DNA from: Leptonema illini DSM 21528
Lineage (GTDB): Bacteria > Spirochaetota > Leptospiria > Leptospirales > Leptonemataceae
DNA: 64,000 nucleotides
Direction: 5' to 3'
Assembly (NCBI RefSeq): GCF_000243335.1
Contig: NZ_JH597773.1
Location: forward strand, 4,114,115 to 4,178,114
The translations under genes were made by a program, and so were the position numbers. Position 1 is the first letter of the stretch, and each line of letters begins with the position of its first letter. This document shows, one piece after another, positions 4,283 through 8,617 of this stretch. A model generated the notes under the pieces. It had not been told where the DNA came from. It worked only from the letters and a program-made list of their open reading frames with translations, and did not search any database.

Positions 4283-4576
4283 GTTCTTTTTCCCGGTTGA
4301 GTTGAAAAAACCCGACCGACGTAAAACTTGCCGCTTACGTTAAGGTTTCGTCAATCGAATTTCGATTCAGAATAAAAGACGCGAGGAAAAAAGGGATCGA
4401 CGTACGTTTGTTGCCGGCGGCAGACTGATCGGTCTCTATGTTTGCAGGAGCTCCAGACTCTCTGTTGATTTGAACGTCATAACCATTTAGAGCCGGTTTT
4501 GAGACGTGTTCTTACGAGATAGCTTGTAGCCAGCAGGCATCCGACTCAGAAAGTGTTTTGATAGACTGAACGCGAT

Positions 4577-4730
4577 AGCAGGCTGCTGAAAAAGCAGCCT
4601 GCTAAGGCAAAATAGGATGTTTTGCCAAAATGGCCTTTTTGGAAAAAGGCCATTTTGTAAGGATTTTTGGGCTTAGCTCAAAAATCCGTCAGCCGAAAAA
4701 GTCCACGGATGGACTTTTTCAGCAGCCTGA
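4577..4730. repeat. block of five perfect hairpins bounded by a 16-bp inverted repeat
   Basis: Five back-to-back stem-loops occupy 4577-4720: 4577-4587/4593-4603 (11-bp stem), 4606-4612/4620-4626 (7 bp), 4626-4640/4643-4657 (15 bp, 2-base loop), 4661-4669/4679-4687 (9 bp) and 4695-4705/4710-4720 (11 bp). The outer segments 4579-4594 and 4714-4729 are also a perfect 16-bp inverted repeat (core caggctgctgaaaaag). Near-identical sequences flank the block: tgatagactgaa at 4559-4570 and tgataggactgaa at 4728-4740. It looks like an inserted palindromic or MITE-like element, and it creates a spurious 5' extension of the next gene. Confidence 0.8.
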
Positions 4731-4740
4731 TAGGACTGAA

Positions 4741-5241
4741 GTGGAAAAGATCGTAGAAGAAAGGATCGCAGGAACCCGTGTCGCCTCGATGCAAGTAGAA
4801 AGGGCCTTGCTCGAAGAGTTCGGTCATCTGCTTGCCTCTCAGCTCGAAACACCCGACTATCATGTTCGCATAACACATCCGCTTCATTTAGGTGAAGATT
4901 CCGTCGTTATCCCGCATCTACAGATCGCTCCCGATGCGTCTGAAATGCCCGCTCTCATTATCGAATTTTTTAACGTTCAGAGCAGGCAAACTACGGCGGC
5001 GCGCCTCCGACTATACGAAAGGCATCGTATTCGTGAGTACTGGGCCATTGATCTTGATACGCGCGAGCTGGACCGATACGTACTACTTGAAGGCTATTAC
5101 CTGCCGCCGCATGCCTTCGATCTGCGAACGGACGCGGTCTTCTCTGTGGTCTTTCCCGAGCTGCGTCTTGAGCCCGCTTTTACGGGCTGGTCGATGTATG
5201 AGTCGAGCGATTTGCCGTCACACGATACGCCGGCGCAGTGA
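4741..5241 (+). CDS. Uma2-family (DUF820) nuclease-fold protein, divergent
   Basis: About 166 residues from GTG 4741. The core PALIIEFFNVQS...LRLYERHRIREYWAIDLDTRELDRYVL matches the Uma2 pattern (PDL..EV.S...K..LYE..GV.EYWIVD), a PD-(D/E)XK-like nuclease fold common in cyanobacteria and scattered elsewhere. The usual EVLS is EFFN here, the catalytic Lys position is Arg, and the N-terminal YELIDGE block is missing, so activity is doubtful. The frame is open back to 4630, but everything before 4741 is hairpin-element sequence, so a start at GTG 4741 is more reasonable (AGGA lies just upstream). It may be a remnant truncated by the element. It converges with the sirtuin gene 6 bases away. Confidence 0.55.
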   Translation: MEKIVEERIAGTRVASMQVERALLEEFGHLLASQLETPDYHVRITHPLHLGEDSVVIPHLQIAPDASEMPALIIEFFNVQSRQTTAARLRLYERHRIREYWAIDLDTRELDRYVLLEGYYLPPHAFDLRTDAVFSVVFPELRLEPAFTGWSMYESSDLPSHDTPAQ

Positions 5242-6197: not shown

Positions 6198-6965
6198 ATG
6201 CAAGGTGTTGCGTTAAAAGAGAAACAGCTGGAAGTGCGTCTCGCAGAAAACCAGCTTGAAATCGAGCAGACACTGTCTCTTCGATACGACGTGTTCAATC
6301 GCGAACTGGGCGAGGGCCTGCCCGAATCGGCCGCCACATGCAAGGATCGCGATGAATATGATTTCTACTGTGATCATCTGATCGTCGTCGACAGAGCGTC
6401 CGAGGATCGCATCGTCGGAACCTACCGCCTCCTGAGAGGTTCCGTCGCTCGCGCTAACATCGGCTTTTACTCCGACAACGAATTCGATCTGTCTCGCATC
6501 TATGACCTGAAAGACGAAACGGCTGAGATCGGCCGCAGCTGCGTGCATCCCGATTACAGAGACGGATCGGTCATCGGTCTTCTGTGGACCGGCCTTGGCT
6601 GGTACATCAAGAAGCATGACATCCGCTATCTGATGGGATGCGGCTCGGTGCATGACACTACCGTCGAAACCGCCAACGAGGCCTTCGCTTTTTTTAGAGA
6701 GAAGAATCACCTTGTCGACGCCGATCTGCGCGTAACGCCGCGTAACTCTCATCGCATGGAAGGGTTTAACCCTCTGCATCAACCCGAGAATCTGAAGGCG
6801 GCCATGTGGAAGATTCCGCCGCTGCTTCATGGTTATACGAAGGTGGGAGCGAAAATCGGCGGCGAGCCGGCTCTCGATGCCGTCTTTGGAACGACCGACT
6901 TCTTTATCTTTTTCGACTCAAAGAAGATCTCGGATCGCTACGAGAAGCACTACCTGAAAGACTGA
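6198..6965 (+). CDS. olsB: ornithine-acyl-ACP N-acyltransferase (OlsB-type GNAT), ornithine lipid synthesis
   Basis: The 255-residue GNAT-fold protein matches the OlsB/hemolysin-like acyltransferase family, which transfers a 3-hydroxyacyl chain from ACP to ornithine to give lyso-ornithine lipid. Diagnostic blocks are LSLRYDVFNRELGEG, DEYDFYCDHLIVVD, IVGTYRLLRG, AEIGRSCVHPDYRDG and LMGCGSVH. The start at 6198 has a good GAGAGGAAAA ribosome site. No olsA-like O-acyltransferase is adjacent, so the second step must be encoded elsewhere. The leader holds a TACTGT/ACAGTA inverted repeat (6134-6139 and 6154-6159) that could be an operator. A hairpin at 6987-7018 follows. Confidence 0.8.
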   Translation: MQGVALKEKQLEVRLAENQLEIEQTLSLRYDVFNRELGEGLPESAATCKDRDEYDFYCDHLIVVDRASEDRIVGTYRLLRGSVARANIGFYSDNEFDLSRIYDLKDETAEIGRSCVHPDYRDGSVIGLLWTGLGWYIKKHDIRYLMGCGSVHDTTVETANEAFAFFREKNHLVDADLRVTPRNSHRMEGFNPLHQPENLKAAMWKIPPLLHGYTKVGAKIGGEPALDAVFGTTDFFIFFDSKKISDRYEKHYLKD

Positions 6966-7321: not shown

Positions 7322-7357
7322 GGAAAAAAAGGCCTCACAGAAGGGAATCTGTGAGGC
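7322..7357 (-). terminator. intrinsic terminator of the flavoprotein operon (reverse strand)
   Basis: A 9-bp perfect stem gcctcacag / ctgtgaggc (7332-7340 and 7349-7357) has an 8-base loop. On the reverse strand it is followed by a run of seven T (A-run at 7324-7330). It lies 64 bases past the flavoprotein stop, in the correct orientation. Confidence 0.8.
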
Positions 7358-7420: not shown

Positions 7421-8617
7421 CTACATTCCGGGAAGCCGTGGTATCCGCTTGAGTTTCGTATTGCGGTAGTAGAAGCCCCATAGCCGCTTCACGGCATGTC
7501 CGATGAAGGGAAGCGGTAGAAAGAAAGCCCGTCGATCGCTTCGAAAAACAAGGGCCGCTCCGTTCCCGCTATCCATCAAGCAGATGATATTCAGATGTTC
7601 AAAGTATCCTCTTCGATGAGTGGAGCCTCGCTCCATGGCGAGAATGTTATACACAGCGGCCTGAGCCATCGCTTCTGCTATATGCCCCTGCTTCGCCCTC
7701 CAGTCGGGACCGTCCAGGGCGGCCGTATCGCCGATAGCAAAAACGTTATACGCGTCGAGAGTATCATCGAAGTTATGCATCACCTCGCAATAATGGTTGA
7801 TCTGCACGAAGCCGGCCTTGTTGAGCGGTATGTCTGATTTCTTCAGAATCGGATGCCCTGCCAGACCGGGAATATAGATGATAAGATCCGATTCAATAAA
7901 GGAGCCGTCTTCGAAGGCGATACCGTTCTCTTTGAACTCAGTGATCTTAACGCCGAAGTGGCGTCGGATGTTCAATCGCTTGAAAAACTTGCCGAGAGCC
8001 GTAAGGGCATCGGGCCCCATACGCGCTCCAGGAGAAGGCATCGGGGCGAAGAACGTCAGCTCAAAGCGATCACGTACGCCTTTCTTTCTGAGCAGATGGT
8101 CGATGTTGAACATGAGCTCAAAAGCAGGGCCGCCGCGCACGGCAGACGGATCGTCGGGATTGCCGCCAAAACCCACTGCGATGCGTCCGCTGCCGGTTTC
8201 GATTATTTCGACTAACCTCTCTCTTATGCGGTCATGTTGATCGGGTGAGGCGCAGATAGAGAGGGTATGCTCCTCCATGCCTTTCACCGGCCTTTTTCCC
8301 GCGCCGAGGCCGACGATCAGATACTCATAGGCCGTCCATCCCGCTGTCGTCAGGCGCAGCTGCTTTTTCTTGATTTGAATCTCGGCAACCTCGTCTATCA
8401 CGAGATCAAAGCCGTGTCTTTCGGCCAGTCGCTTGAGATCGATGCTCACGTCTTCGATCGTCCGCTCTCCTGTCGGCACCCAGATAGAAAGGGGATAAAC
8501 AAAGAGCGACGGCCGATTGCTGATCAGCGTTACCGGCATACCGGCGCGGCGAAGTTGAATCGCCGCTTCGACTCCGGCGATGCCGCCGCCTGCAATGAGC
8601 ACTCGCTTCTTCATCAA
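7421..8617 (-). CDS. FAD-dependent oxidoreductase, sulfide:quinone reductase / NDH-2-like
   Basis: The 398-residue flavoprotein has an N-terminal FAD-binding GGGIAGVEAA (10-19), a second nucleotide region around residues 144-152, and the FAD-binding NVFAIGDTAALDGP (291-304). The C-terminal amphipathic or hydrophobic tail FFLPLPFIGHAVKRLWG suggests membrane association. The layout is that of sulfide:quinone oxidoreductases and related type II NADH dehydrogenases. Cys122 (LSICASPD) and Cys346 (NIICLMD) sit where two of the three redox cysteines of SQR fall. The middle one is missing (AVRGGPAFE at 159-167 instead of C-x-GPAYE), so sulfide oxidation is unproven. Its ATG overlaps the stop of the His-rich NifX-like gene upstream (ATGA, 8614-8617), implying joint translation. 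Confidence 0.75.
   Translation of the reverse strand: MMKKRVLIAGGGIAGVEAAIQLRRAGMPVTLISNRPSLFVYPLSIWVPTGERTIEDVSIDLKRLAERHGFDLVIDEVAEIQIKKKQLRLTTAGWTAYEYLIVGLGAGKRPVKGMEEHTLSICASPDQHDRIRERLVEIIETGSGRIAVGFGGNPDDPSAVRGGPAFELMFNIDHLLRKKGVRDRFELTFFAPMPSPGARMGPDALTALGKFFKRLNIRRHFGVKITEFKENGIAFEDGSFIESDLIIYIPGLAGHPILKKSDIPLNKAGFVQINHYCEVMHNFDDTLDAYNVFAIGDTAALDGPDWRAKQGHIAEAMAQAAVYNILAMERGSTHRRGYFEHLNIICLMDSGNGAALVFRSDRRAFFLPLPFIGHAVKRLWGFYYRNTKLKRIPRLPGM

Follow-up and report, generated by a model that had tools for sequence, protein, structure and literature searches.

MITEs are usually viewed as inert passengers. Those derived from IS5-family ISs, together with the ISs themselves (NF033581, IS5_4), are the mobile elements closest to the one described here, and a YTAR target is typical of IS5. 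Among structured RNAs, the nearest is TD-2 (RF03162) of Treponema denticola and its relatives, which is also a dispersed, high-copy spirochaete repeat with two ANGGAN hairpins on one strand. TD-2 was reportedly described by Weinberg and colleagues in 2017; our literature search for TD-2 found nothing. GGA-loop hairpins (ANGGAN, CAGGAUG or the SELEX word RUACARGGAUGU) are likewise found in CsrA-sequestering RNAs of the CsrB/RsmY/RsmZ type, which are single-locus sRNAs with many sites. The published CsrA/RsmE signature comprises the ANGGAN hexaloop, CAGGA(U/A/C)G and RUACARGGAUGU, and CsrA ligands prefer short stems (PMC7652899).

The window, by which we mean the whole stretch of 64,000 nucleotides of Leptonema illini DNA that was analysed, contains a 151-bp MITE-like element with terminal inverted repeats (TIRs), target-site duplications (TSDs) and five hairpins (Table 1). 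It resembles the IS5-family ISs and their derived MITEs in its ends, which recur exactly over 16 bp in an IS of a related genome (G005), and in its 4-bp YTAR duplication. It differs from the ISs by its five ordered hairpins, and nothing is shared past the TIR. With TD-2 it has the last hairpin in common (GCUGAAAA..CACGGAUG..UUUUCAGC); however, three hairpins are modelled in TD-2 and five are present in the element, whose TIRs and TSDs are established. In contrast to CsrB, RsmY and RsmZ, the elements described here are mobile, short and dispersed, with two candidate sites and long stems.

Table 1. Features of the element and its neighbour gene, in window coordinates.
Feature	Position	Strand	Remarks
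MITE-like non-autonomous element, 151 bp	4579..4729	+	limits from the alignment of seven near-full copies; flanks beyond are unrelated
TSD, left side, ATAG	4575..4578	.	
Left TIR, CAGGCTGCTGAAAAAG	4579..4594	+	
Right TIR	4714..4729	-	16/16 identical to the left TIR, no mismatch
Hairpin 1, left TIR folded on itself	4576..4604	+	
Hairpin 2, GGCAAAAUAGGAUGUUUUGCC	4606..4626	+	GGA at 4615-4617; CAGGAUG in copy L003
Hairpin 3, stem of 15 bp	4626..4657	+	centre variable among copies: GG, CC, GC, GGG, CCC
Hairpin 4	4661..4687	+	
Hairpin 5, ANGGAN type	4695..4720	+	loop ACGGAT at 4705-4710 (CACGGAUG)
TSD, right side, ATAG	4730..4733	.	overlaps the AGGA word preceding the Uma2-like gene
Uma2-family gene (Pfam PF05685)	4741..5241	+	probable GTG start at 4741; adjoins the element, outside it

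The original prediction had described five stems packed end to end within 4559-4740 and closed by a perfect 16-bp inverted repeat. All of these were located, the stems between 4576 and 4720, and the repeat is free of mismatches. The flanking repeat that had been reported with them stood in part: the quoted words are present, but other copies lack the longer near-duplicate tgatag(g)actgaa, and TSD behaviour is limited to the four bases ATAG that abut each end of the element. The fold energy of the element lies 11 SD (as DNA) and 10 SD (as RNA) below that of dinucleotide shuffles, and none of 200 shuffles equalled it. The element has no coding capacity of its own. A long ORF (4630-5241) starts within hairpin 3, and Uma2 homology is confined to the portion past the GTG at 4741, ahead of which lies a Shine-Dalgarno-like AGGA that overlaps the TSD. 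The proposal that the element supplies a false start region to the Uma2-like gene is thus plausible.

The assembly of the own genome (G000, L. illini 3055T; 4,522,760 bases in three contigs) holds seven near-full copies that are 93-98% identical, one copy truncated on the right and some fragments, as well as at least 14 solo end hairpins of 23 bp (CAGGCTGCTGAAAAAGCAGCCTG). The near-full copies are intergenic, and their flanks differ from copy to copy without any relatedness. Near-full matches are confined to this genome among the 61 that were searched. Its eight dispersed copies speak against a lone sequence conserved as coding. Hairpin 1 of copy L007 is inverted, and the centre of hairpin 3 (4626-4657 in the window) reads GG or CC in different copies; such flipped centres look as if they had arisen by palindrome-arm recombination or template switching. 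Searches of plasmids returned nothing beyond short matches in Enterobacter, viral contigs held no match to the hairpin 5 pattern, and a literature search for the TIR word found nothing.

The bases abutting the ends read TTAG/TTAG, CTAA/CTAA or ATAG/ATAG, a 4-bp YTAR-like set, and are never reverse complements. In the own genome, TSDs are identical at 12 of 21 insertions (5.3 by permutation, p 0.0004). Insertions in other phyla gave a similar picture, with 21 of 33 identical against 12.2 by permutation, where the highest of 2000 permutations reached 19. Copy L002 provides a further view of an insertion. Here, a putative MCP gene ending in ..TTTTTAG is followed by the element and then by TTAGGAGGATGTATG, which starts a cheW-like gene; if the element and one TTAG are taken out, a normal compact operon junction remains. 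The names MCP and CheW come from our own reading of the translations and are provisional. At L005, the neighbour genes are only 26-41% identical to those of relatives, too distant for an empty-site comparison.

A candidate for the type of mobiliser is found in the related genome G005, which belongs to the same family. Here, two exact copies of the 16-bp end form an inverted pair at a distance of 1.29 kb, flanked by a CTAG/CTAG duplication. The transposase of this IS, split over two overlapping frames, scores 163 bits against NCBIfam IS5_4 (NF033581; cut-off 140). A second IS, in G033, has a transposase that is 46% identical, similar ends and TTAG/TTAG. What the G005 IS has in common with the element is the TIR, and it contains no inner hairpin, so a transposase of that type does not need the hairpins for recognition. 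The lack of sharing past the 16-bp TIR also rules out the element as a simple internal-deletion derivative of the IS. A hairpin across a CsrA-like word at the start of the G005 transposase was discarded, as its fold is not clearly better than that of shuffles. In the own genome, no IS5_4 transposase exceeds the cut-off; a mobiliser in the same genome is usual for MITEs, yet not required. The ISs of L. illini were ruled out as mobilisers by their differing ends (GAGTCTGTCGAAAAAC, AGAAGCCATCTCAAA, GGCTTTGTTGTA). The same genome holds seven 1.71-kb ISs (L133, L135, L137-L141) that are more than 99% identical, end in GAGTCTGTCGAAAAACCT and are distant relatives of the IS5_4/IS1182 group.

The feature in the window can be regarded firmly as a mobile element. 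The earlier assignment to a non-autonomous palindromic element is borne out by multiple dispersed copies without a transposase, TIRs that match those of an autonomous IS5-family IS in a relative, and 4-bp TSDs of the IS5 type, from which its MITE-like identity follows. Since such an IS is present in a relative and no such transposase scores above the cut-off in the own genome, we infer that movement took place in trans and that the element has become an orphan in this assembly. In this process, an IS5-family (IS5_4) DDE transposase would have recognised the CAGGCTGCTGAAAAAG ends and duplicated the 4-bp YTAR target; this mobiliser seems to be gone from L. illini. The copies would then decay, often via deletion between GCAGCCTG direct repeats, leaving the 23-bp end hairpin plus TSD. 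Of these repeats, one is part of hairpin 1 (right arm) and the other, at a distance of 128 bp, is at the right end of the element; a deletion between them computes to exactly the 23-bp solo. Several solos retain intact TSDs. The proposed origin of the solos fits exactly as a matter of arithmetic, computed and not witnessed.

The interior of the element extends the comparison beyond spirochaetes. A sub-threshold match to TD-2, whose consensus has two ANGGAN loops, prompted a scan of GTDB genomes with the stem of the Leptonema hairpin 5, in which the six loop bases were left free. ANGGAN occupies the loop in 113 of the 123 distinct matches listed, from at least 23 genomes of several phyla, and loop positions 2 and 6 vary; of 118 unrelated hairpins of equal loop size, none reads ANGGAN. 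The sources among the matches listed include Sedimenticola, Magnetococcales, other Gamma- and Deltaproteobacteria, Desulfarculus, Nitrospirae and a spirochaete of the window's class. These matches are laid out as an end hairpin, a GGA hairpin 2, hairpins 3 and 4, a GGA hairpin 5 and YTAR, and may stem by common descent from one mobile family. The original prediction covered neither the signature of GGA loops nor the recurrence of the five-hairpin layout in other phyla.

Hairpin 2 was outside the scan pattern. Among the matches listed, it carries ANGGAN on a stem of at least 5 in 50 of 104 cases on the sense strand, compared with 1 of 104 on the antisense strand (0.8% in shuffles), and its stem shows compensatory changes across lineages. 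In 42 Sedimenticola copies, the N positions vary at 20% and 27% and the A and GGA at 2-7%. Within one genome, the N positions vary four to five times more than average, whereas A and GGA do not. Hairpins 1, 3 and 4 do not preserve their loops across lineages. In Leptonema, the loop of hairpin 5 is ACGGAU in all seven near-full copies, while that of hairpin 2 has five bases with GGA, as opposed to the six-base ANGGAN hexaloop; both GGA loops lie on one strand. When 12 loci of other lineages were compared with Rfam, tRNA was the only family reached at gathering score. GNRA tetraloops were dropped as a second RNA signature, as the counts were dominated by the GAAA of hairpin 1 and by ANGGAN loops.

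Against Rfam TD-2, the window element scores 41.9 bits, below the gathering score of 48.7, and was therefore not assigned to this family. R1, a covariance model derived from 15 non-spirochaete elements, detects the window element from hairpin 2 through hairpin 5 with 49.7 bits (E 5e-10), as the sole strong match in the 64 kb, and recovers several Treponema TD-2 loci more weakly, on the TD-2 strand. A large part of these 49.7 bits is circular, because the scan had used the Leptonema hairpin 5 stem; hairpin 5 alone scores 34 bits in L070. Hairpin 2 and the arrangement of the parts make up the independent share of the score. In the Treponema TD-2 loci L142-L171, GUACAAGGAUGUAC and like words match the CsrA SELEX consensus. 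Judging by sequence, TD-2 RNA may itself bind CsrA. If the elements do bring CsrA sites, TD-2, known in Rfam as a structured motif, would gain a testable protein partner.

As ANGGAN is the published CsrA/RsmE signature and the hosts encode csrA, we propose that the interior of the element is an RNA-like, CsrA-binding cargo. The element has GGA in hairpin loops and an ANGGAN hexaloop, and hairpin 5 presumably shares its word (CACGGAUG) with the hcnA stem-loop of the RsmE complex. The own genome encodes csrA, as do all 24 genomes with elements that were tested; this weighs little because CsrA is common in these phyla. The long stems of the element, the short hairpin 2 loop in Leptonema and the unbiased orientation to genes count against CsrA binding. 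A transcript of the strand with the GGA loops of hairpins 2 and 5 would bind a CsrA dimer, and every transcribed copy would form a small mobile CsrA site or decoy. The case for binding by the element RNA is about evenly balanced or tilts somewhat in its favour. In connection with csrA, we noticed that a record labelled Caldithrix sp. SulCav_AS07-7_2_46_39 has the same csrA contig and position as G035 (L190, L205 and others), which is placed in the window's class; the Caldithrix label looks wrong.

The hairpins could instead matter only as DNA, in an ordinary MITE whose cruciforms or single strands are recognised by a transposase or host protein, and the ANGGAN loops would then be a property of the DNA in a single old family. 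The ends and TSDs suit a DDE transposase that needs TIRs alone, a DNA palindrome gives the same paired changes as an RNA, and the flipped centres (L007 hairpin 1, hairpin 3) and the unbiased orientation to genes agree with this as well. However, the G005 IS has the TIR without inner hairpins, so that hairpins are dispensable for such recognition. Moreover, the constraint on A-N-GGA-N with free N is that of a known protein-RNA contact, and it is not accompanied by conservation of the hairpin 1, 3 and 4 loops across lineages. We consider a role as DNA only rather unlikely, and lean towards a MITE-like element that was moved by an IS5-family transposase and carries a CsrA-binding RNA cargo, both parts taken together.

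It is improbable that the elements serve as cis-regulatory or terminator cassettes, which would place their neighbours under CsrA control or end their transcripts. The near-full copies do lie between genes, those that are clearly tandem in Leptonema are all sense (L002, L003, L005, L007), L002 and L005 run right up to a Shine-Dalgarno word with a start codon, and the MCP-cheW pair is separated by L002. Four copies are nevertheless too few (one-sided p 0.06), and orientation to flanking genes is unbiased in the larger multi-phylum set (tandem copies 15 sense, 21 antisense), which gives no support to cis-regulation of neighbours. The very stable fold and the TD-2 match below gathering score would also be expected of a structured RNA gene or intrinsic terminator that is conserved in place. 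This explanation is barely credible, because the copies are dispersed among unrelated flanks and have TIRs and TSDs, and because near-full matches occur in one genome among 61.

If the mobile element indeed carries a CsrA-binding cargo, CsrA sites spread through genomes would act as decoys that shift the free CsrA pool, or would be selfish modules taking advantage of CsrA. Transposition could thereby rewire or titrate a global post-transcriptional regulator across many phyla simultaneously. Our literature search found no paper connecting CsrA with MITEs. That small transposable elements with a conserved CsrA-binding hairpin pair form a class across phyla, in which the Treponema TD-2 RNAs would be included, is a more tentative proposal that we place just short of an even chance.

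Two further observations concern hairpin loops. In the window, a hairpin with a perfect 10-bp stem and a loop of the ANGGAN type (GCCTCACAGA agggaa TCTGTGAGGC; 7332-7357) sits between the ORFs 6198-6965 (+) and 7421-8617 (-). Elsewhere in the window's class, multi-hairpin repeats at L064, L066, L070 and L080 (G043, G039) carry on one strand the loops ACATGGATGT and CACGGAGG; their ends differ.
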